Assembly (NCBI GenBank): GCA_903939515.1
Contig: CAJAHH010000072.1
Span: forward strand, 1-56,494
Reading direction: 5' to 3'
DNA from: an uncultured Verrucomicrobiota bacterium
GTDB taxonomy: Bacteria; Verrucomicrobiota; Verrucomicrobiia; Limisphaerales; UBA9464
Length of the DNA: 56,494 nucleotides
Position numbers and translations under genes: made by a program
Notes under the pieces: generated by a model
Told to the model about the DNA's origin: nothing
Databases searched by the model: none
Seen by the model: only the letters and a program-made list of their open reading frames with translations
Part shown: positions 7,612-43,139 of the stretch, piece after piece
Numbering within the stretch: the first letter of the stretch is position 1
Layout of the letters: each line of letters opens with the position of its first letter

Positions 7612-7633
7612 GAATCGCATAATAGGGTGTCAT
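7606..7633 (+). repeat. IS630 left terminal inverted repeat
   Basis: A 28-bp inverted repeat beginning TATTGAGAATCGCATAATAG and ending in TGTCAT, with the target TA as its first two bases. The stop codon of the upstream 1630-residue protein (7609-7611) and the transposase stop (7630-7632, minus strand) both lie inside it. Confidence 0.93.
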
Positions 7634-8202
7634 TCAGGCCATAGCGTGGATTGTTTGTAGCAGGCGGCGATGATGGAGCGGCGGCGGCGCATGCGGCGCA
7701 GAGCGGCGGTGGCCTGCAAGCTGAGGTCCCAGGCCTGTGTGGCGATCAGGTTGCCGATCTGATGGGTCTTGAGGTTCCCCCACATGTACTCGACGGGATT
7801 GAGTTCGGGAGCGTAGGCAGGCAACCGTTCAACCACGATGCGTCCGGCGGTGCTGGCCACGTAGTCCTGGACCAGGCGGCTGCGATGGATCGGGGCACCG
7901 TCCCAGACGACGCTCAGTTTCCCCGGGACATGCCGCTGCAGGTGTCGGAGGAACTCGATGACCTGGGGACCCTTGATGCTGCCGGGGTGGATCTGGAAGT
8001 AGAACCGGTACAGGGCCAGACCGCCGATCATGGAAAGGCTTTTCCAGCCGAAGGTTTCCTGGATCACCGGCGTCTGGCCTCGGGGCGCCCAGGTACGTAC
8101 CCGGGTGGGACGTGTGCTCAGTCCGCTTTCGTCGATGAAGACGAGGGTTCGGCCCTCTTTGCGGGCTTTTTTTTTATCGCCGGCCACTCGACCCGCTTCC
8201 AA
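7630..8202 (-). CDS. IS630 transposase OrfB (DDE catalytic part)
   Basis: 190 residues in the -1 frame relative to OrfA, overlapping it by about 85 nt. It contains the DDE triad contexts: FIDESG (first Asp), WDGAPIHRS (second Asp) and AYAPELNPVEYMW (Glu). It is likely made as an OrfA-OrfB fusion by -1 slippage on AAAAAAAAAG rather than from its own start at 8202. It ends inside the left terminal repeat. Confidence 0.88.
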   Translation of the reverse strand: MEAGRVAGDKKKARKEGRTLVFIDESGLSTRPTRVRTWAPRGQTPVIQETFGWKSLSMIGGLALYRFYFQIHPGSIKGPQVIEFLRHLQRHVPGKLSVVWDGAPIHRSRLVQDYVASTAGRIVVERLPAYAPELNPVEYMWGNLKTHQIGNLIATQAWDLSLQATAALRRMRRRRSIIAACYKQSTLWPE

Positions 8203-24069: not shown

Positions 24070-24327
24070 TCAGCCGAACAAGGCTGCTATACGGTCCACC
24101 CCATCTAACGGGGGATACTGACTCGTCGGACTGGCTTTGCGAACCATTTCCTTAACGAGTTTGAAATCGCTCTCGGCCCGCTCTTTGGCTTGAGCCAGCA
24201 TCTCGCGGGTGATCTTTGGCGGCGGCCGCAATGAAACCGATTCACCCGGCTCGGGCGGACGGCCCGTCTTGACCTTCACCTCTGTAGGCAAGGTCGGTTC
24301 CTGAGTTTTTATGGCTTCTATTTTCAC
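24070..24327 (-). CDS. small protein, possible divergent FlgM anti-sigma factor
   Basis: 85 residues beginning MKIEAIK with a disordered Pro-rich first half ('GESVSLRPPP') and a helical second half ending 'SQYPPLDGVDRIAALFG'. FlgM proteins are ~90 residues, disordered N-terminally, and their C-terminal part has an 'I-x-x-G-x-Y-x-x-d-x-x-x-I-A' pattern; the tail here is reminiscent but not decisive. A strong ribosome-binding site GAGGAGGT lies 8 nt before the ATG. Its operon also encodes sigma-28, which supports but does not prove an anti-sigma role. Confidence 0.55.
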   Translation of the reverse strand: MKIEAIKTQEPTLPTEVKVKTGRPPEPGESVSLRPPPKITREMLAQAKERAESDFKLVKEMVRKASPTSQYPPLDGVDRIAALFG

Positions 24328-27348: not shown

Positions 27349-28080
27349 TCACTGGGTCTTGGGAGCTGCTTTCCCGGCCCTCACCACAATGGTCACCCGC
27401 CGGTTGCCGGGGTCGTCACGCAAGCGATCCGGCAGCGGTTGTTCGCTGCCCATTCCTGAAATCTTGCGAATCTGTGAGGACTTCACTCCGAATGATTGCA
27501 GCAATTGGCGGGCCGAGTTGGCTCGAATAGCCGACAATTCCCAAGGATCTCCGTCGGATGTACCCGCCTCGCCGGCGGTATGGCCGTTCAATTCCAACTC
27601 CACCTGAGGATAGCGAGCCAACTCCCAACCCACGGTCTCGAAGACCAATTGACCATACTCGGTCATGCCCCGTGCCCCGGCTTGAAACAGCGGTTTCCCA
27701 GGACTGTCGAAGAACGTGATCAGCAAACCTTCACTCGAACGCTCTACCTTGACCGAACGGGTGTCCTTCCATTCGGGATTCTCCATGACGGCCCGTTCCA
27801 GTCGTTCATCTAGGCGCTGCATGAATTCCAGCGGAACGGCCGATTGATTTTCGAAGAGTTTCGAGCGGTTCTGAGCGCCATCCGATTCAGAGGTCTTCTG
27901 AGGCATAACACCCAAGGAGTTCTTAACCGTGGACATCATCCGGTTGCGGAAGTAGCTAGCCAGTTCGCCCTTGGTCTTCTCGTCCTGGGCAACAATCCAC
28001 ATGACCATGAAAAAGGCCATCATGCCCGTGACAAAGTCGGCATAAGCCACTTTCCATGCACCACCTCCTCCTGCTGCCAT
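27349..28080 (-). CDS. motB: flagellar motor stator protein MotB
   Basis: 243 residues. One transmembrane helix near the N-terminus in 'WKVAYADFVTGMMAFFMVMWIVA' with the conserved ion-carrying Asp (A-D-F), then a plug region and an OmpA/MotB peptidoglycan-binding domain (about 115-240) with 'VELELNGHTAGE', 'LSAIRANSARQLLQSFGV' and 'IRKISGMGSEQPL'. It anchors the stator to the cell wall. It follows motA by 25 bp. The Gly-rich start MAAGGGGAWK corresponds to the usual 'hGGaWKVAYADFVTA' N-terminus. Confidence 0.94.
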   Translation of the reverse strand: MAAGGGGAWKVAYADFVTGMMAFFMVMWIVAQDEKTKGELASYFRNRMMSTVKNSLGVMPQKTSESDGAQNRSKLFENQSAVPLEFMQRLDERLERAVMENPEWKDTRSVKVERSSEGLLITFFDSPGKPLFQAGARGMTEYGQLVFETVGWELARYPQVELELNGHTAGEAGTSDGDPWELSAIRANSARQLLQSFGVKSSQIRKISGMGSEQPLPDRLRDDPGNRRVTIVVRAGKAAPKTQ

Positions 28081-28105: not shown

Positions 28106-28960
28106 TCACTTCATGGTCTTCAGCATCGTCTCCAACTCGGAGGATGCCGGGCGAACGTCGTCACTGAGGACGCGCCGACCCACTTCGCAGGCTAACAACG
28201 GTGCCGCGCCATTGGCGAAGCTCACAGTGGCCTCCTTGATCACATTCATATACATGGCCTCAGCCCGGCAGATGAAATCGATGTTCGTGGCCAAGGGTGC
28301 CACCACGCCGTAAGAAGCGAAGATGCCGTAGAACGTTCCGCACAACGCCGAGCTAATGCTCGCTCCGACGACTGTGGTTCCTTGGTCGATCTTGCCCATG
28401 GTCAACACGATGCCCAATACCGCGGCAACGATGCCGAAGGCGGGCATTGAATCAGCCACCTTACCCAGCACTTCCACCGGTTCATGATGCTCGTGATGGG
28501 CCGTGATCAGGGATTGCTTCATGAGAGACTCCAACTGATCGGGCTTGATGCGTCCATCCACCACGGGCTTCAGTCCATCGCACAGAAAGTCCATGGCGTG
28601 ATGGTTGCTGTAAAACTTAGGGTACTTCTTAAAGAGGCTACTTCCAGCCGGGTTCATTACGTGTTCTTCCAGGGCGATCATTCCGCCGCGGCGCCCGAGC
28701 ACGAAGAGCTCATAGAGGCACTTCAGCAGTTCCTCATAGTGGGTCTTGTTGTAAGGCGGTCCTTTGAGGGTCGCTGTTAAACCGTGGACGATTCCCTTCA
28801 GCGTCTTGACCGGGGCCATAATGACCAAGGCTCCGAGTCCCATCCCTGCAATGGGGATGACTTCTCCCGTATGATACAGTGCCAACGGGTTGCCCCCGTT
28901 CATCATGAAACCAAGACAGGTAAGACCGATAATGATGACGAATCCAATAATGACGACCAT
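28106..28960 (-). CDS. motA: flagellar motor stator protein MotA
   Basis: 284 residues with four membrane segments, two near the N-terminus ('VVIIGFVIIIGLTCLGFMM', 'MGLGALVIMAP') and two around 175-225 ('MPAFGIVAAVLGIVLTMG', 'LCGTFYGIFASYGVVAPLA'). The MotA loop with 'PxxxxLESLMKQSLITAHHEHHEP' and the conserved Pro and Gly residues of the pore helices ('ADSMPAFGIVAAVLG') are present. It forms the ion channel with MotB. It starts 5 bp after the fliA stop, so sigma-28 and the stator are co-transcribed. Confidence 0.95.
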   Translation of the reverse strand: MVVIIGFVIIIGLTCLGFMMNGGNPLALYHTGEVIPIAGMGLGALVIMAPVKTLKGIVHGLTATLKGPPYNKTHYEELLKCLYELFVLGRRGGMIALEEHVMNPAGSSLFKKYPKFYSNHHAMDFLCDGLKPVVDGRIKPDQLESLMKQSLITAHHEHHEPVEVLGKVADSMPAFGIVAAVLGIVLTMGKIDQGTTVVGASISSALCGTFYGIFASYGVVAPLATNIDFICRAEAMYMNVIKEATVSFANGAAPLLACEVGRRVLSDDVRPASSELETMLKTMK

Positions 28961-28965
28961 AGGTT

Positions 28966-29766
28966 TTAGATGGGATTAACTCGCTTGATGTAGGCACTCA
29001 GAGCCGAGACGGCCTGCACATGGATTTGACAGGCACGGGCTTCGGTGAATCCGAGGATTTCTCCGATATCCTTCAATCGGAGACCCTCGTAATAGAACAT
29101 GTTCAGAACCTTCTTCTGGACGTCGGGGAGCACTTGGATCCGGTCGCGGATCTGCTGATGCAATTCCCGTTGAAGGAGCATTTCAGAGGGGCCCTGCTGA
29201 TTCAGGTCCGCCAACTCCCGTGAGGGCAGCTCGTCGCTCGCCAAGAAGGCAGGTTCCGAGAGGCTTTCAAAGATCACTCCGCGCAACCGGTCGAGCAGTT
29301 GCCGATACTCCGGCATACCAATTCCGAGTCGCGAGGCGATTTGCTCCTCGGAGGGCGGCCCGCCCAGCTCAGTCGTCAGCGTATCGATGGTTTCCTCGAG
29401 CGCCTGACGCCGCGCCAAGTCGGACCGAGAGAGCGGACTAATACGGCGCAGTTCGTCGAAGATCGCGTTTTTGATGCGAATGCGCGCAAAATGAGGAAAA
29501 GAGGCTCCTTTGAGCGGGTCATAGGTTCTTCCGGCTTGGACTAGGGCGAAAAGCCCGAGATTAATCCAATCATCCAGGTCAGTACCTGCTGGGAGCGCCG
29601 GGCAGTACCGTTGAACGGTTCTGACCACCAGAGGTGCGTATCGCCGCAGCAAATCCTCCTCACCATCGGCCGGCCCGATGGTGTCCCGGTAGCTGTGCAG
29701 CGCCCGGACCTTGTGGGTCAAGGAGCTCAGTACAGTCGGGGCTTCTGAGAACTCAGTGGCTGGCAT
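28966..29766 (-). CDS. fliA: RNA polymerase sigma factor for flagellar operon (sigma-28)
   Basis: 266 residues. Region 2 'EEDLLRRYAPLVVRTVQRYCPALPAGTDLDDWINLGLFALVQAGRTYDPLKGASFPHFARIRIKNAIFDELR' and region 4 'VLPDVQKKVLNMFYYEGLRLKDIGEILGFTEARACQIHVQAV' (helix-turn-helix) match FliA/WhiG sigma factors. It directs late flagellar gene transcription. Its start overlaps the preceding 85-residue gene by 14 nt. Its position in front of motA, motB and fliD, in a large operon, means it may be expressed together with structural genes rather than separately. Confidence 0.94.
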   Translation of the reverse strand: MPATEFSEAPTVLSSLTHKVRALHSYRDTIGPADGEEDLLRRYAPLVVRTVQRYCPALPAGTDLDDWINLGLFALVQAGRTYDPLKGASFPHFARIRIKNAIFDELRRISPLSRSDLARRQALEETIDTLTTELGGPPSEEQIASRLGIGMPEYRQLLDRLRGVIFESLSEPAFLASDELPSRELADLNQQGPSEMLLQRELHQQIRDRIQVLPDVQKKVLNMFYYEGLRLKDIGEILGFTEARACQIHVQAVSALSAYIKRVNPI

Positions 29767-30010
29767 TACCCCTCGTATTCACTGGGTTTTCTACGGCGGG
29801 CTTCTCGTCACCACCGGTGGTGGAGGAGACCGATTCTTGGCTCGCTCGAAAAATCAGCCGGCACCATTGGCGGGAGATGAGCGCCATAATGCCGCCTGAG
29901 ATGGCTGCGTGAAACAGACTCTCAACCCAGTCGACGCCATTGAAGAGGGAGATCGCCAGCAGCAGCAGGGCGACTCCCGTTCCGATGGCAGCGCTGACGA
30001 GTTGAATCAT
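29753..30010 (-). CDS. small two-helix membrane protein upstream of fliA
   Basis: 85 residues with two hydrophobic segments (about 3-23, 'LVSAAIGTGVALLLLAISLF', and about 30-48, 'SLFHAAISGGIMALISRQW') and a hydrophilic C-terminal tail. I do not recognise the family. Its ATG overlaps the stop of the upstream transposase-like gene by 4 nt and its own end overlaps fliA by 14 nt, so it is clearly an operon member. It could be a small regulator or partner of the flagellar export or stator machinery; nothing specific shows this. Confidence 0.7.
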   Translation of the reverse strand: MIQLVSAAIGTGVALLLLAISLFNGVDWVESLFHAAISGGIMALISRQWCRLIFRASQESVSSTTGGDEKPAVENPVNTRGNASH

Positions 30011-31134
30011 ACGTTGCCGGACTCCATGACCTTCGAAGGGGACTGAAGCACTTCGAGGATGGCGTCATCGCTCACAAAGGGCTTCCGAGCATCCAACTCC
30101 CCTTCCCACTCAATCATCGCGGACGAGAGGAGTCTGGCCTTCATGGCAGGATGGGTGGGAACTTCGTCTTGAGAGGCGCGGCTGCGAACCAAACGCATTT
30201 CGCGTTCCAACCAGGAGACCGAGGACAAGGGCGTCTGGAGCTCTCGGGGCAAATTCACGACCGAGAGTGTCGAGGCCTGACCAGGACCCGGAGATTTGAC
30301 CCAGGATGAAATAGGATGCCCTTCGGATAAGTGCTGGGCCCAACTTTCGGCCAAAACCATCGGATCGCCTCGGAATCCCGGGTGCGTCCGTCGCGCTTTG
30401 ACATTCGAAGTCGCCCCGCGAACTCGTGATACAAACTGCCGTTGGCAAACCTGCAATCGGGCCTGTGGCCACTGGGTGGCTGCAGCCTCGAAAAGCCCCG
30501 GGGTCATCCGTGCGGTTAACCCAGAAATCTCCCCCATACCTCGCTGATCCAAAGCGCGGAAAATCTCGGGCCAATTGGGAGTGCTGGCCGCACCTAAGGT
30601 GAAATCTGCGACCATCCGATACCCATGCTGATCGACAGCCACCAGACACGTGGCCGGCAGGCATTCTGATCCAGAGTTTTGGCTAATCCGCTCCCGCCAC
30701 GTCAGCACAAAGAGCCAGAAATGTCTGGGGAGTCTCCGGCGTCGCCATCCGCGGATTTGGGAATCGAGAGTAAGAGCCGCTCGCTCAACCTGGGACTCGT
30801 CAAAGCGCAACCCGCACCGTTCATCCAGCCAATCTCTGGCCGCATTTGGCGCTTCTCGCCTGAGCACCGCTGCGGCGACTGCCACCTGTCGGGCCCGATC
30901 CATCCAGGTCCCCTGATCTAGCGGCGGTGGGCGAAACGGTGTGAAGACGACATTCCCTTCATTGGGCGATCGGGAGCCCGAATCCGGAGTGGGGAACTCG
31001 TGGGGCAAATTGGCCACCAACTCCCGAAGGATCGACGCCAGGCGTGAGTGCCCTTCGCGGGTCAACACCTGGATCGGGTTTGGGGGAGTCACGGAATCCT
31101 GAAGTTCCATGGCAGATGAGTTTTCCAAAGTCAT
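30007..31134 (-). CDS. IS256/Mutator transposase-derived protein, catalytically dead, in fliA operon
   Basis: 375 residues. Residues about 95-240 align by eye with the IS256-family (Mutator) catalytic region: 'WLDERCGLRFDESQVERAAL' corresponds to the 'ly-G-l-vS-st-vSr' helix; 'WRRRRLP' to 'W-x-x-R-pL'; 'VDQHGYRMV...TLGA' to 'G-x-D-x-x-G-x-R-x-vLG'; 'NWPEIFRALDQRGM' to 'W-x-x-fL-x-x-L-x-x-RGL'; 'GLFEAA' to 'GL-x-x-Ai'; and 'QVCQRQFVSRV' to 'QRC-x-x-H-x-x-RN'. The catalytic Asp positions appear replaced (V143 and A208 in the expected contexts) and the His of QRCxxH is Gln233. The frame is intact, no terminal repeats are seen, and it is coupled to its neighbours by 4-nt overlaps at both ends. 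This fits a domesticated transposase serving a new role, perhaps in DNA binding. Confidence 0.75.
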   Translation of the reverse strand: MTLENSSAMELQDSVTPPNPIQVLTREGHSRLASILRELVANLPHEFPTPDSGSRSPNEGNVVFTPFRPPPLDQGTWMDRARQVAVAAAVLRREAPNAARDWLDERCGLRFDESQVERAALTLDSQIRGWRRRRLPRHFWLFVLTWRERISQNSGSECLPATCLVAVDQHGYRMVADFTLGAASTPNWPEIFRALDQRGMGEISGLTARMTPGLFEAAATQWPQARLQVCQRQFVSRVRGATSNVKARRTHPGFRGDPMVLAESWAQHLSEGHPISSWVKSPGPGQASTLSVVNLPRELQTPLSSVSWLEREMRLVRSRASQDEVPTHPAMKARLLSSAMIEWEGELDARKPFVSDDAILEVLQSPSKVMESGNV

Positions 31135-32918
31135 GGAAGCAATGATGAGTAGGCAGTCACGTGTACCAGAGAGTTATTGGCGACCATCGGAGCCGGTGGT
31201 GCCGCCTCACCCCGCTCCTCCACCTGCATCCCCGGCTCAGCAGTGATGCCGCTGATGCGAAGGAAGTCGTAGATGTAGCGGGCTGAAAGAGCGACGGCCC
31301 CGGAGTTGGGGTAAGCCTTGGGGGCTGGGTCGGTCACGATTCCGAGAATCTGACCAGAAACATCGAGCACCGGTGCACCCACCGTGGACAAGGGCATCCG
31401 GTCTGAGAGGGTGAAGTAGCGCGGATCGGCCTTCATCCCGGAGTTGCGCAGGATCCGCGACCGATGTGCGCTGGGTTGAAGACTGTCACGCGAACTGGCT
31501 CCTGGCTCCATTTGCATGCAGAACACCCAAGAACCCGGTCTTATGGAACTGCGGTTGGTTTGGACCGCCAGCGAATGAAAAGACCGAGCTCCACCTTGGA
31601 TTTGCACAATGGCCAAACCCAGGAAGGGATCTACCTTGACCGGTGTTGCCCGGAGTTTACCGCCGACAATACTTACTGTGATACTGCGCGAGGAATTGGG
31701 CACATGCCTCGCGCTCGTAAGGACATGCCCGGCACCGGACACGATGAAGCCCGCTCCGAAGGCACTGGGCGTTTCATCGGTCATCCGGGCGTCGGATTGA
31801 ATAGCGGCCACCCCGTCATCCCGGAAGGTTGAAATAATGGGCCTGAATTCGTTGACTAAAGACCGGCCACGGTCCAGATCGACGGGCGCAATAATACGCA
31901 TCAACTGACGCCGAGCGCCCGAGGCGACTTCCAGGCCGCTCATCTCAGACAGAGTCCACCAACGATAAGCCTCAGCCATGTCCGTCTTCATGACTCGGCC
32001 TCGGTAGTAATACTGACCGAGGAGGTATTGAGATTCACGATGACCATGCTCTGCAGCCTTTCTCAGGTAGGTCTCGGCCATAACCGGATTCTGGACACTG
32101 CCTCCCGAATCGTAGATCACCCCCAATTGATACTGAGCAGGCACAAAGTCGGATTCCGCAGCCCTGCGGTACCACTGGATGGCCCGAGACAAGTCCACAG
32201 GAGCCCCACGACCATAATGATAGAGGCTTGCCAAACTACACATCGAAGGCACAAAGCCGTGCTCTGCAGCACGGGAGAACCAAACCACTGCATTCGAGGC
32301 TTGGTTTTGATCCAAATTAAGTTGTCCCAACAGGTGCTGAGCGGCGACCAGACCTTCGCCGGAAGCATGATCCAGATATTTCCGGGCAGCCGACCAGTCC
32401 AAGGGTAATCCGTTGGTTCCTGTGTAATAGCTGCGTCCCAAATTATAGAGAGCGACCGGATTCCCCAATTCAGCGGCCTGGCGGTAGTAAGACATGGCCT
32501 TGGCAATGTCTTTGGGGACTCCCCGCCCGGTTTCATATAAGTACCCCAGGTTCACTAAAGCGGGCGAACTCTGGCTCTGTGCCGCCCGGGAATAGGCATC
32601 CAACAAAACCGGGCTAGACCCCGTCACCTGTTTGAGTTGGTTGGATAAACCGACGTTGAACCAGGACCAGGACGCATCCGACGGCCCGGAAGAGTCGGGA
32701 ACCTGCACCATGGGAGGAAACGCATCGCCGACTGCAACGCTGCTTGGAGTCGGATCGAGTGCCTCAGCAATGAGAGCCGGTTGAGCGGGTTTCTCAACAG
32801 GAGAACCCACCGCCCACAGCACGCCACCAACCGCGGAGACCATCGCGGCCACAAGAAGTCCAGACAGAGACCTCCTCACCAGGGTCCCCGTGGATTGATC
32901 TGTTCGCGATACCAACAT
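31131..32918 (-). CDS. Sel1-repeat protein fused to inactive trypsin-like domain, membrane-anchored
   Basis: 595 residues from the ATG at 32918, preceded by GAGGTAGAG; a TTG ten codons upstream is less likely. One membrane anchor at about 16-37. Sel1-like repeats span about 118-345 ('A-x-x-x-LG-x-x-Y-x-x-G-x-G-x-x-x-D-x-x-x-A' periodicity). A trypsin-like serine-protease domain covers about 385-560: 'FGAGFIVSGAGHVLTSARHV' keeps the catalytic His405, but the 'DLA' Asp is Gly434 in LGLAIVQI and the GxSGxP nucleophile is Val513 in STVGAPVL. It therefore appears to be a pseudoprotease. It heads the minus flagellar operon, divergent from flgB, and overlaps the transposase-like gene by 4 nt. Confidence 0.82.
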   Translation of the reverse strand: MLVSRTDQSTGTLVRRSLSGLLVAAMVSAVGGVLWAVGSPVEKPAQPALIAEALDPTPSSVAVGDAFPPMVQVPDSSGPSDASWSWFNVGLSNQLKQVTGSSPVLLDAYSRAAQSQSSPALVNLGYLYETGRGVPKDIAKAMSYYRQAAELGNPVALYNLGRSYYTGTNGLPLDWSAARKYLDHASGEGLVAAQHLLGQLNLDQNQASNAVVWFSRAAEHGFVPSMCSLASLYHYGRGAPVDLSRAIQWYRRAAESDFVPAQYQLGVIYDSGGSVQNPVMAETYLRKAAEHGHRESQYLLGQYYYRGRVMKTDMAEAYRWWTLSEMSGLEVASGARRQLMRIIAPVDLDRGRSLVNEFRPIISTFRDDGVAAIQSDARMTDETPSAFGAGFIVSGAGHVLTSARHVPNSSRSITVSIVGGKLRATPVKVDPFLGLAIVQIQGGARSFHSLAVQTNRSSIRPGSWVFCMQMEPGASSRDSLQPSAHRSRILRNSGMKADPRYFTLSDRMPLSTVGAPVLDVSGQILGIVTDPAPKAYPNSGAVALSARYIYDFLRISGITAEPGMQVEERGEAAPPAPMVANNSLVHVTAYSSLLP

Positions 32919-32966
32919 CTCTCTACCTCGCAGCAACTCGTAGGCCAATCATTCTCTGGAGACCTA

Positions 32967-32982
32967 TGGCACGACCCGTGCT
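32967..32982 (+). promoter_or_regulatory. sigma-54-like motif and palindrome between divergent flagellar operons
   Basis: TGGCACGACCCGTGCT matches the -24/-12 consensus TGGCACG-N4-TTGCW except for one base (GTGC for TTGC). The same bases form an inverted repeat GCACG-acc-CGTGC. If it is a sigma-54 promoter, transcription would start almost at the flgB ATG (32994), which would leave no leader; an operator for a dimeric regulator is therefore an equal alternative. Confidence 0.3.
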
Positions 32983-32993
32983 GCGGGGATGGT

Positions 32994-33377
32994 ATGACCG
33001 AAGCGCTGTTTGGCAGCGTCAACTATATGGCGGAGAAGCGAAGTCTGGATGCGTGTGTCGAACGGCAGCGCGCCCTGGCGTCGAACATCGCTAATCTAGA
33101 GACGCCCGGATTTCGGCGGATGGACGTCCCTGCACAGTTTCGCAGCCAACTCTCTGAGGCGGTTCGACGTCAGGATGTTTCCTCGATGAACACGCTTCGG
33201 CCTAACGCGGTGATCGACTCTTCAGCGCCGGCACGGACCCCTGATGGCAATTCAGTCAACCTGACCGACGAGTTGGTTGCCATGCAGGACAATGGATTAG
33301 AGCACAGCCTTCACGTTCAAATGATTTCAGGTCGCATGTCCCGGCTCCGGGCCGCCATCAGCGGGAGGATGTCATGA
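32994..33377 (+). CDS. flgB: flagellar basal-body rod protein FlgB
   Basis: 127 residues. The N-terminus MTEALFGSVNYMAEKRSLDACVERQRALASNIANLETPGFRRMDV matches FlgB, including the rod/hook signature 'NIAN-x-x-TPGF'. It is the proximal rod component next to the MS ring. The ATG at 32994 yields the correct start; the open frame extends much further upstream but through the divergent promoter region. First gene of the 22-gene plus operon, overlapping flgC by 4 nt. Confidence 0.94.
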   Translation: MTEALFGSVNYMAEKRSLDACVERQRALASNIANLETPGFRRMDVPAQFRSQLSEAVRRQDVSSMNTLRPNAVIDSSAPARTPDGNSVNLTDELVAMQDNGLEHSLHVQMISGRMSRLRAAISGRMS

Positions 33378-39492: not shown

Positions 39493-40248
39493 ATGCGCAC
39501 ACTTCTCCTCGCCCTATTAATCATCCTTCTCGGCATTGGCACCTCCGTCGCCACATTCCTCTTGGGTGGCAAGGTGGCGCAGAAGCGCATTCAAACGATC
39601 CTTGCCCAGATCGTCGAAGCCTCTCAGGCGGCGGCGGCCGTCAAGTCCCCGGAGCAGGACGTTCTCCAAGATGCACCCGATACCCAACCGGCAGGCAACG
39701 AGCGCCAGACTGAGCTGAGCTTGGCCGCTTTGGAGGCCATGCGGGAAACTTCCGAACCCGGTTCACTGCGCTTCGACAATCCGGACGTCGTCAATTTACT
39801 CAACCAACTGCGCACTCGCCAAGAGTACCAGGACGGCCGCGAAAAGCGTTTGAAGGAACTCGAAGAAAGAATCCGCCTAGAGATGCAGAATCTCAACCTA
39901 GCCACGCAGTGGATTGCTCAAGCCCGAGTCAGCCAAGACCAGCTATTGACCAATAGGATCACCTATATCCGGGTGGAAGAACAGCGAAGCCTTCTGGAGC
40001 ATGGTCGCCGAATATCCGCGCTACCGCCGCCCCAGGCCGTCGCTATTTTGACCAACTATACGCCGGATGAGATCGCCCGAACGCTGACCGTCATCAATTC
40101 CACCAACGCCTCGACGCTGTTAGGCGCCTTGGTCGGCACGGGAGAATCGGGTGTGCGTCTGGCTGCGGACATTTCTCGTAGAATGATGCACATCTCGCTG
40201 CGGTCGCCCGATGGAACCAATTCCACTGCGGGTTCACCTACGCCATGA
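39493..40248 (+). CDS. MotE/YlxF-like protein between fliJ and fliK
   Basis: 251 residues with an N-terminal membrane helix ('TLLLALLIILLGIGTSVATFLLGG', about 3-26), a linker, a coiled coil (about 95-140, 'RQEYQDGREKRLKELEERIRLEMQNLN') and a C-terminal module with 'ILTNYTPDEIARTLTVINSTNASTLLGALVGTG', resembling the MgtE-N-like repeat 'Y-x-x-M-x-P-x-x-A-x-x-I-L'. Proteins of this kind (YlxF/MotE) lie between fliJ and fliK in many operons and serve as MotC or stator chaperones in some species. The ATG is at 39493 and the stop overlaps fliK by 4 nt. Confidence 0.72.
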   Translation: MRTLLLALLIILLGIGTSVATFLLGGKVAQKRIQTILAQIVEASQAAAAVKSPEQDVLQDAPDTQPAGNERQTELSLAALEAMRETSEPGSLRFDNPDVVNLLNQLRTRQEYQDGREKRLKELEERIRLEMQNLNLATQWIAQARVSQDQLLTNRITYIRVEEQRSLLEHGRRISALPPPQAVAILTNYTPDEIARTLTVINSTNASTLLGALVGTGESGVRLAADISRRMMHISLRSPDGTNSTAGSPTP

Positions 40249-43139
40249 TTTCAAGCGACCTGAAGACAGCGAATTTAAGTCCCCGCGCTTCCCTGCCCTT
40301 TTCATGGAATTCCGACGGGGATTCAGGGTTTGCAACCGGCAGGCCCACTGGAGCAACGGCGTTTCAGGCACACCTGAAATCAGCCCAATCGGCCCAGTCC
40401 TCGGAGACGGCCTCCTCACCGGTGGCCGACGCACCCCAGAAAGCAGAAACGGCAGGATCGGCGGACCCTTCATCGAGGGTTTCGTTCCAGAATCCTTCGA
40501 GCGACCCACAGGTTCGGCCTTCGATCAAACCCACCCGCAAGGCGTCTCTCAATCTCCGAGCGATGGTCGACGCCAAGGTGAGATTCATTGGCCCGAGCAC
40601 CGCTTCTATTTCGACACCCTCCGTATCCTCTTCAGTTCCATCGGCACAAGCCGGGCCGTCCTCTTGGGGAGAACCCCTCGGGCCGGCTGAACGGTCAGAG
40701 TCGGAGTTACGCAGGCCACCGGCCTTGACCTCTGGAGACTCACCCCGGAATGACGTTCTTCAAGGAATGCCAGAGCGCCCATTGATGGATTCTCAGCGGT
40801 TACCCGATGCAGAAGTCTTAATATTGCCCAATAGGAGTGGTGACCCACAGGAGGTCCCCACTGCCAAGCAGATATCGTCCGATGTGTTCTCAACCCCTTC
40901 CGATGGGGGGCGGACGTATGCGTCGAGGATGGTCGCCAAGAGCCCCGACTACGCGTCGTCAACAGACTCGAATTCCGAGATCAAGCCTGAGTTTGCATCA
41001 GCCCTTGAGGAGTTGCCTGCGATGGTGTCGACGAACTCCGGCGGCGGTGAATCAACTTCCAACCCGGAGACCATTGCAGCCATGAGTGGACGGGTTGCAG
41101 TGGTCCAAATCCCAGCCAACGGTTCCCTGCGAGCTGCAGTCACGACAGAGACATTTCAGTCGTTACCGACGTCACGATCCGCCACCGCTTCCGATCCGTC
41201 GATGGGCATCGATTTGATCTCAAGCGAGGTTCGAGACGCCGCCCGTCGTGCTGTGGCGCAATCGCAACTCCTGGGCACGTCACCCGTCGCGGGCGTATCC
41301 GTTCGTCCCGCCAACAACAATGATGCGTTCCGCAGTCTCATTCTTGATCCGGGGACCGGCGCCCTTCCGAGTTTAACCACGGATTTGGCCCCTTCATTGG
41401 GGGGGCGCTTGAGCGACAACGCCTCGAAACAGAATCCTGGTTCACCCTTAGCGACCGGTCTGTCCTCCGTGCTTCCGACGCCATCCACGATGGCGCGGAC
41501 TTCTGAGACCAACGGCGCAGAACCCTCTGCGAACACTCGACTAGAGACTGTCCAAAATGGGGTTTCAGATCCAACCCGAGTCCAACGGAACGTCGCGACG
41601 ACCGCGCCGACTCCGTCGATCCTCCCTGTCGAATCCGGCTCGCAAAACGGTGAAATTATCCAGCGCGAGGCACGCTCGGCTAACCCGAGTTCGCAGTTGA
41701 TTGAGAACACTTCAGCGAACAATCCATCGGAGACTGTCGCAAATCGGGCTTCAGACCCAACCGGGGTCCAGCGGAACGTCGCGACGACCGCGCCAACTCC
41801 GTCAATCCTCCCTGTCGAATCAGGCTCGCAAAACGGTGCGTTGTTCCAGCGCGAGGCACGCTCGGCTAACCCGAGTTCGCAGTTGATTGAGAACGCTTCG
41901 GCGAACAAACCATCGGAGACGGCTGGAAGCCGGGTTTCAGATCCAACCGGAGTCCAACGGAACGTCGTGACGACCGCGCCAACTCCGTCAATCCTCCCAG
42001 TCGAATCAGGCTCGCAAAACGGTGAAGTCATCCAGCGCGAGGCACGCTCGGCCAACCCGAGTTCGCAGTTGATTGAGAACGCTTCGGCGAACAATCCATC
42101 GGAGACGGCTGGAAGCCGGGTTTCAGATCCAACCGGAGTCCAACGGAACGTCGCGACGACCGCGCCAACTCCGTCAATCCTCCCTGTCGAGTCAGGCTCG
42201 AAAAACGGTGAAGTCATCCAGCGCGAGGCACGCTCGGCTAACCCGAATCCAGGGTTGAGTGAGAATCCGTCGACCGTTGAAGCCACCGACTCCAGCGCGG
42301 CCAGCCAGTCCAGTCTCGCCGAATCGCAATCACCACCCAAGCCGTCAGGCCCCTCCCTCCGACCGGCGAACCGATCACCCCACGCTAGGGGTATTGATTC
42401 CGTTGCATCGACTGTTGCGGCACGCACCTCCGTCGAGGCCGATAAGAGTTCTCCAACGCCTTTGGTTCTGGCGAATGGCACCGAAGATCGGATGCGCTTA
42501 GATTCCCTCGGTCGTGATGCGGGATCCGGTTCCTCGTCAAATCCAGGACCGGAGCATTCACAAACGCCCGGCACTCCCGCAGCCGGCCTGTTCCCCGGAG
42601 CTTCGCAGTCCCCATCGTTCCAGGAACCCTTGGTTGATGGTGCCTCCAACTTATCCAAGACCGCGGACGCCGGCACTTCAGCTTCGCTCCTTCACGAATC
42701 TCACAAACCCAGTGCTGTCCGACTGGTTCATCTGGACTCCCCGGGAGCTGGCGGCTTGGAACTGCGCATCCAAGAAGTTGGCGAAAAACTTATCATCCGG
42801 ACGCAGGATCTAGTGGGTTCCATCGACGGGCAAAGCACCCAATGGAAAGAGCTCCAACAGCGCTTGGAGACCAGCGGCATTGTTCTCATGCCCATCGAGG
42901 CCTCATTGGGTGCAACGGCTGCACCGATCGAAGCTCGAAGCTCATCCGAGGAATTGCGGCACACAGTTTGCTACGACGGCTCTATGGGCTCCACAGGTCG
43001 CGATAGTTCAGATCCTCGCTCGTCGAGTGGTCAGGCACGCTCCTCTGGAGAACCTTCTCACTTGGTCGCTCCGGAGCTGCCCGATGAGACCACTGAATCT
43101 GCCGAGGTGCTGCCAGCCTCCCGGCAGTGGTGGGCCTGA
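40245..43139 (+). CDS. fliK: flagellar hook-length control protein FliK with internal tandem repeats
   Basis: 964 residues, about twice the usual FliK. The long N-terminal and central part is Ser/Pro/Asn-rich and disordered. Four copies of a 62-residue repeat occupy residues 425-672; the last three are nearly identical. The C-terminal Flg_hook domain lies at about 815-890 ('GGLELRIQEVGEKLIIRTQDLVGS...LQQRLETSGIVLMPIEA'). FliK is an infrequent molecular ruler whose length relates to hook length, so repeat number could tune hook length. The ATG at 40245 overlaps the preceding stop, and flgD follows after 19 bp. Confidence 0.88.
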   Translation: MISSDLKTANLSPRASLPFSWNSDGDSGFATGRPTGATAFQAHLKSAQSAQSSETASSPVADAPQKAETAGSADPSSRVSFQNPSSDPQVRPSIKPTRKASLNLRAMVDAKVRFIGPSTASISTPSVSSSVPSAQAGPSSWGEPLGPAERSESELRRPPALTSGDSPRNDVLQGMPERPLMDSQRLPDAEVLILPNRSGDPQEVPTAKQISSDVFSTPSDGGRTYASRMVAKSPDYASSTDSNSEIKPEFASALEELPAMVSTNSGGGESTSNPETIAAMSGRVAVVQIPANGSLRAAVTTETFQSLPTSRSATASDPSMGIDLISSEVRDAARRAVAQSQLLGTSPVAGVSVRPANNNDAFRSLILDPGTGALPSLTTDLAPSLGGRLSDNASKQNPGSPLATGLSSVLPTPSTMARTSETNGAEPSANTRLETVQNGVSDPTRVQRNVATTAPTPSILPVESGSQNGEIIQREARSANPSSQLIENTSANNPSETVANRASDPTGVQRNVATTAPTPSILPVESGSQNGALFQREARSANPSSQLIENASANKPSETAGSRVSDPTGVQRNVVTTAPTPSILPVESGSQNGEVIQREARSANPSSQLIENASANNPSETAGSRVSDPTGVQRNVATTAPTPSILPVESGSKNGEVIQREARSANPNPGLSENPSTVEATDSSAASQSSLAESQSPPKPSGPSLRPANRSPHARGIDSVASTVAARTSVEADKSSPTPLVLANGTEDRMRLDSLGRDAGSGSSSNPGPEHSQTPGTPAAGLFPGASQSPSFQEPLVDGASNLSKTADAGTSASLLHESHKPSAVRLVHLDSPGAGGLELRIQEVGEKLIIRTQDLVGSIDGQSTQWKELQQRLETSGIVLMPIEASLGATAAPIEARSSSEELRHTVCYDGSMGSTGRDSSDPRSSSGQARSSGEPSHLVAPELPDETTESAEVLPASRQWWA
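41517..42260 (+). repeat. four 186-bp tandem repeats inside fliK
   Basis: Units at 41517-41702, 41703-41888, 41889-42074 and 42075-42260 (62 codons each). The first unit is divergent in its first 28 bp; copies 2-4 differ mainly by single-base substitutions such as GEVIQ/GALFQ. The period is a multiple of three, so gain or loss of a unit keeps the reading frame. Each unit begins E-N-x-S-A-N and contains 'VQRNVATTAPTPSILPVESG'. Confidence 0.93.

Follow-up and report, generated by a model that had tools for sequence, protein, structure and literature searches.

What is a transposase-like gene doing among flagellar genes, and does the protein still work as a transposase? The question is raised by a 375-codon frame at 31134-30007 (minus strand) in the window, the whole 56,494-nucleotide stretch of DNA analysed here, which comes from an uncultured Verrucomicrobiota bacterium. 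The frame is open throughout and shares 4 nt with each of its neighbours, an upstream Sel1/trypsin ORF (lower end 31131) and a downstream 85-aa ORF, p85 (upper end 30010); the ORF coordinates thus confirm the full-length frame and the overlaps on both sides described in an earlier, sequence-only reading. The operon has the order Sel1/trypsin-like gene, transposase-like gene, p85, fliA, motA, motB, a 134-aa gene, and fliD. The divergent run starting at a flgB-like gene includes fliF, fliG, fliH, a fliI-type ATPase, a hook/rod gene, fliM, fliN, flhB and flhA, and an SRP54-type GTPase in the flhF position; for part of the genes in this run the flagellar identities are from Pfam. The features are as follows.

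27349..28080, minus strand: motB (Pfam)
28106..28960, minus strand: motA (Pfam)
28966..29766, minus strand: fliA, sigma28 (Pfam and NCBIfam profiles)
29753..30010, minus strand: p85, small protein of 85 aa directly before fliA, apparently with two membrane helices (by eye)
30007..31134, minus strand: IS256-derived, catalytically dead transposase homologue of 375 aa (ORF list, profiles, alignment, model)
31131..32918, minus strand: Sel1-repeat and trypsin-like protein, the operon's first gene, catalytic Ser apparently Val
32933..32947, minus strand: putative sigma54-type -24/-12 element (GG-N10-GC) before the Sel1-transposase-p85-fliA-motAB operon, conserved in 8/8
32967..32981, plus strand: putative divergent sigma54-type -24/-12 element (GG-N10-GC) before flgB, conserved in 8/8
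32994..33377, plus strand: flgB-like rod protein gene, first in the divergent structural operon

In the Sel1/trypsin-like protein the His and Asp are kept, and the Val at the apparent catalytic Ser (Leu in one relative) was seen by eye across all eight aligned sequences; judged from these residues, it is a probable dead protease beside the dead transposase. PADLOC returned two weak matches for this protein (E 0.0065 and 0.0089) and none for the transposase-like protein or p85, and p85 has no Pfam match above the cut-off. At 43 of 50 other Verrucomicrobiota loci (L053, L058 and L068 among them) fliA is likewise immediately preceded by a small same-strand ORF (60-145 aa). Three of these reach E 0.01 with p85 by blastp and none by tblastn, so the kinship of p85 with them rests mainly on place and size.

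Relationship to IS256 transposases and state of the active site

The transposase-like protein is a homologue of the IS256/Mutator transposases. Transposase_mut is its only Pfam match at E values up to 5 (1.7e-7, 30.9 bits against a cut-off of 21, residues 101-243), and the NCBIfam IS256 model, which matches all nine members of the clade described below, covers residues 83-340 (3.1e-16, 59 bits, under the equivalog cut-off of 150). The IS256/Mutator catalytic core of about 145 residues that had been aligned by eye is therefore backed by a significant profile match, and the NCBIfam match is longer. An AlphaFold model built from 19 rows (nine from the clade and ten IS256 rows from viral contigs, with L152 left out because its frame looked broken) has a pLDDT of 74.9 and a pTM of 0.71; the nine clade rows alone give a pLDDT of 37.7. 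The predicted fold is closest to the transposase of ISCth4, an IS256 family member, which is the top match of the 19-row model in Foldseek (3.0e-13) and in VIA-align (Z 19.3, rmsd 9.4 over 314 residues; the next family is P element, Z 10.0), a match that is helped by the IS256 rows added to the model's alignment. Lower VIA-align rows, including other transposases and retroviral integrases, were set aside as reflecting a common fold only.

ISCth4 transposase is laid out as a DD (1-56), an NDB (56-108) and an HTH (108-165), besides an RNase H-like core that carries a helical insertion domain (PMC7780238). With domain limits drawn by us from the alignment and the model, the window protein has helices 20-41 at the place of the dimerisation domain, an HTH at about 67-137, an RNase H-like core at 138-236 and 297-350, and a shortened insertion domain at 237-296. 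The family's combination of an HTH and an RNase H-like fold with a helical insertion domain is thus found in the model, for which ISCth4 is the top match and IS256 rows were used. The insertion domain has about 10 alignment columns fewer than in IS256 transposases, and the N-terminal NDB DNA-binding segment is largely absent in alignments, with a pLDDT under 50 for region 43-67.

Catalytic positions were read from a MAFFT alignment of the window protein with 27 IS256 proteins from the phylum, using the triad and C/DxxH motif as defined for ISCth4 in PMC7780238. The first catalytic Asp column (Asp in 26/27 IS256 proteins) is Leu144 in the window protein and the second (27/27) is Arg209; the CxxH His (27/27) is Gln233, with its partner Cys230 kept. 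The protein therefore has neither the DDE triad nor the C/DxxH motif (C230xxQ233), and retains 38 of the 108 columns in which the IS256 set reaches at least 90% conservation. The third catalytic residue is kept as E310 (Glu in all 26 IS256 proteins reaching that column), a point outside the sequence-only reading. That reading had placed Val143 and Ala208 at the catalytic Asp positions and Gln233 at the His; the loss of both Asp and the change to Gln233 hold in this alignment, and the two Asp positions were each off by one. Within the clade residue 144 is Leu in eight members and Phe in one, and residues 209, 230, 233 and 310 are invariant. The ungapped phmmer alignment to ISCth4 would place the first Asp at Thr145, and as there is no acidic residue between 125 and 147 the first Asp is lost under either alignment.

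No terminal inverted repeats were found in the flanks, in agreement with what had been noted by eye: the best local inverted match there scores 13, while shuffled sequences average 11.9 (sd 1.7) and reach 20 at most. With both Asp gone, the His changed to Gln233, the NDB largely missing and no terminal repeats found, it is very unlikely that this is a working transposase.

Distribution, selection and the second flagellar system

Orthologues are present in nine species of one Verrucomicrobiota genus. Each genome has a single close copy, at 74-94% identity to that of the window, and the relatives are MAGs. Eight loci came from a peptide-pattern scan over 84,980 species, a method able to detect close relatives only. 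A protein search of 320 genomes of the order found an orthologue in nine; these belong without exception to the window's genus and comprise the window and the eight already obtained by the scan. This protein search gave matches in 31 genomes, the 22 without an orthologue matching at 27% identity or less; the window genome (G000) additionally has an IS256, and G295 has a 24-residue piece on another contig. An alignment search of a sample of 387 genomes of the phylum yielded no further orthologue; 13 genomes had matches, one of them the window genome itself. The 12 others were rejected as orthologues: the best cover residues 64-251, and the ORFs that were aligned (only those of 330 aa or more) keep the second Asp, the His and, where they reach it, the Glu. 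The match in G620 is a 36-residue stretch with stops. Six of 72,556 plasmid records have matches, at 22-28% identity.

The gene lies upstream of p85-fliA-motA in all nine species, and the Sel1 gene precedes it with a 4-nt overlap in all eight whose contig reaches that far (window included). The frame is open in all nine, one being truncated by the contig end. Its median dN/dS is 0.081 (22 of 36 pairs, dS<1.5, orthologues under 70% of length dropped), which indicates a protein maintained by purifying selection; the neighbours have medians of 0.034 (fliA), 0.030 (motA), 0.049 (motB), 0.108 (Sel1) and 0.140 (p85). The several copies or varying sites of a mobile IS256 element are not seen, the neighbours being the same in nine species, and the gene has two marks of a domesticated transposase: it is present once, at the same locus, in each of several species, and it is under purifying selection. 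In an IS256 tree (40 rows, with five near-identical clade rows taken out, phylum ORFs of at least 330 aa only, and ten viral-contig rows added) the clade is on a stem of length 6.55. Domestication of a transposase as a host gene, as had been proposed from the window alone, is strongly supported by these sequence comparisons: one copy, one locus in nine species, purifying selection, the loss of both Asp and no ends found.

The window contains a second, divergent flagellar cluster (22958-53090). Other copies in the window genome are fliA on contig C136 (37%), fliG on C8 (50%), flhA on C76 (56%) and another motAB. Among 50 genomes of the family, window-type FliA (91% or more) is present in exactly the nine orthologue genomes, the other FliA among the matches listed being at 42% or less. 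Window-type FlhA is found in 10 of 19 genomes of the genus, and in an FlhA tree of 52 rows it forms one clade of ten genus genomes (100/100), including a divergent copy in G289, and groups (94/95) with sixteen primary FlhA sequences from the genus. This second-type FlhA of G289 (L250, contig C93) is at 62-63% and lies beside homologues of the window's flhB, flhF, fliP-position and fliR-position genes; the locus is possibly an early branch of the second flagellar system and might help to date the capture. Searches of G289 with the clade alignment, MotA and FliF gave no matches and also missed its primary copies and its known IS256, so that absence there is uninformative.

The primary system has the order flhF, small protein, fliA, motA, motB. 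No match to the transposase-like protein was obtained at 50 other fliA loci of the phylum (tblastn at E 0.01, with flanks of about 1.5 kb or as much as the contig offered), and the only known setting of the gene is therefore the second system's operon. Its earlier description as a flagellar-operon gene accordingly stands for this second, lineage-specific cluster, where it always precedes p85-fliA-motA in the nine orthologue species, and does not extend to Verrucomicrobiota fliA/motA operons generally.

We also note a 964-aa protein at 40245-43139 (plus strand) in the fliK position, with no Pfam match at E 0.001; it is about 60% and 53% (partial alignments) in two relatives, most of its neighbours being above 86%. 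Outside the flagellar cluster there is a piece of a DDE_3 (IS630-type) transposase at 7630-8202 (minus strand; Pfam 5e-30).

Expression, possible function and comparison with known systems

The two putative sigma54-type elements lie 12-14 nt before their start codons, so the messages would be nearly leaderless. They were compared in eight sequences, the ninth contig ending too early, and RpoN is encoded in the window genome. With one mismatch the -24/-12 pattern occurs 17 times in the window, compared to a chance mean of 10.1 (none of 100 shuffles gives as many); the loose pattern is thus not rare here, and the two promoters rest on conservation and position, not on the pattern. By eye, no operator-like conserved block was seen in the divergent promoter region beyond the two elements. 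From the conserved element and the genomic rpoN, we infer that the dead transposase would be expressed together with FliA and MotAB, in the middle class of flagellar genes; the short distance to the start codons and the frequency of the loose pattern count against this.

Of all domains the HTH is the most highly conserved within the clade (59 of 71 columns invariant), which fits the possible DNA-binding regulator of late flagellar genes suggested in the sequence-only reading; the insertion domain is among the least conserved (24 of 60). The ISCth4 HTH contacts the transposon ends through Y120, S125, T126, R127, E144, S147 and K148, according to PMC7780238 (numbering fitted to the PDB sequence by an inferred offset of 3). 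K148 alone of the seven has a like residue in the clade, R118, and the other six align in turn to V90, A95, P96, N/D/E97, S/T114 and E117. Since almost none of the end contacts survive, whatever DNA the protein might bind would have to be a new target, and with the NDB mostly missing as well, the inherited recognition of transposon ends has probably been lost. The protein is only mildly basic (pI 8.35-9.60), which, like the missing NDB and the lack of an operator-like block, tells against a DNA-binding regulator.

The comparisons support the capture of an IS256-family transposase gene by a flagellar operon in the ancestor of one clade, with loss of its ends, both catalytic Asp and most of the NDB end-binding segment and retention as a host gene. 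We propose that the protein, which would be made together with FliA and MotAB from the putative sigma54-type promoter, most likely acts as a dimer joined through its N-terminal helices, and that the conserved HTH on a dead RNase H-like scaffold would bind a new DNA target and regulate the second flagellar system, whose genes would thereby be controlled apart from those of the primary system. Taken whole, this captured, dead, dimeric HTH regulator is a tentative explanation to which we give a little less than an even chance. That a DDE transposase became a transcription regulator, giving a duplicated flagellar system its own control with a new target through a repurposed HTH, is a claim we hold with more reserve.

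The protein could instead have been domesticated as a scaffold or adaptor that does not bind DNA, its dimeric HTH and RNase H-like body binding another protein of the flagellar set; candidates are FliA, the small product of 24070-24327, the Sel1 pseudoprotease and p85. The missing NDB and changed contacts make such a protein-only role nearly as likely as a regulator, since the HTH is conserved in spite of them; the 4-nt overlaps with both neighbours and an upstream neighbour that likewise looks like a dead enzyme point the same way. The retained HTH scaffold and RNase H-like fold count against it, and on balance we think it a fair way from being expected, though a serious contender. It is improbable that the protein is a dominant-negative inhibitor of active IS256 elements, its place in the operon being incidental: there are helices at the place of the dimerisation domain, and an intact-looking IS256 transposase gene (393-422 aa) is located elsewhere in the genome, but the identity to it is only 24%, which makes mixed dimers with a live transposase unlikely, and retention in the second flagellar operon would be left unexplained. 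Residual DNA cutting or joining with other metal ligands, for example in local rearrangement of flagellar genes, would account for the invariant E310 and Cys230, but neither Asp is replaced by an acidic residue and the gene's flanks lack detectable inverted repeats, so we consider it very improbable. A decaying pseudogene, suggested by the lost catalytic residues and long branch, is scarcely credible for a gene that is open in all nine species at the same place with the same overlaps, and it is contradicted by the selection signal (dN/dS about 0.08).

The preferred reading, a domesticated regulator, can be set beside several known systems. The window protein resembles IS256-family transposases (ISCth4 TnpA, IS256) in profile, predicted fold, domain order (HTH, RNase H-like core, helical insertion domain) and the placing of the catalytic Glu and the Cys; it differs from them in having lost both catalytic Asp and the CxxH His, in its mostly missing NDB and shorter insertion domain, and in being a single copy without detected ends, fixed in an operon. 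Domesticated DDE transposases are well documented in eukaryotes, and the bacterial cases that can be named here come mostly from other transposon proteins (RAYT, TnpB/TldR and Cas1). TldR is nuclease-dead and derived from TnpB. Like the window protein it is a dead transposon protein tied to flagella, and PMC13418256 describes it as an RNA-guided, phage-borne regulator of flagellin; the window protein, in contrast, is of the unrelated DDE transposase family and is encoded within the chromosomal flagellar operon itself. It also lacks TnpB/Cas12-type sequence, Transposase_mut being the only Pfam domain detected.

In the open-licence literature, most subscription papers being outside this scope, we found no description of a bacterial flagellar operon that has domesticated an IS256-type transposase. 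What automatic annotation might call an IS256 transposase can turn out to be one of the host's own genes, as this case shows. Because the dead protein has become fixed, is kept by strong purifying selection and is seen solely in the second flagellar system, both the time of capture and the function are testable. The plant proteins FHY3 and FAR1, which with TldR are the nearest functional parallels, derive from Mutator-like transposases, of the same Mutator superfamily. They too are transposases turned into host genes; unlike the window protein, for which regulation is proposed, they are plant proteins and proven transcription factors. If the regulator reading is true, the window protein would be a bacterial counterpart of FHY3/FAR1.
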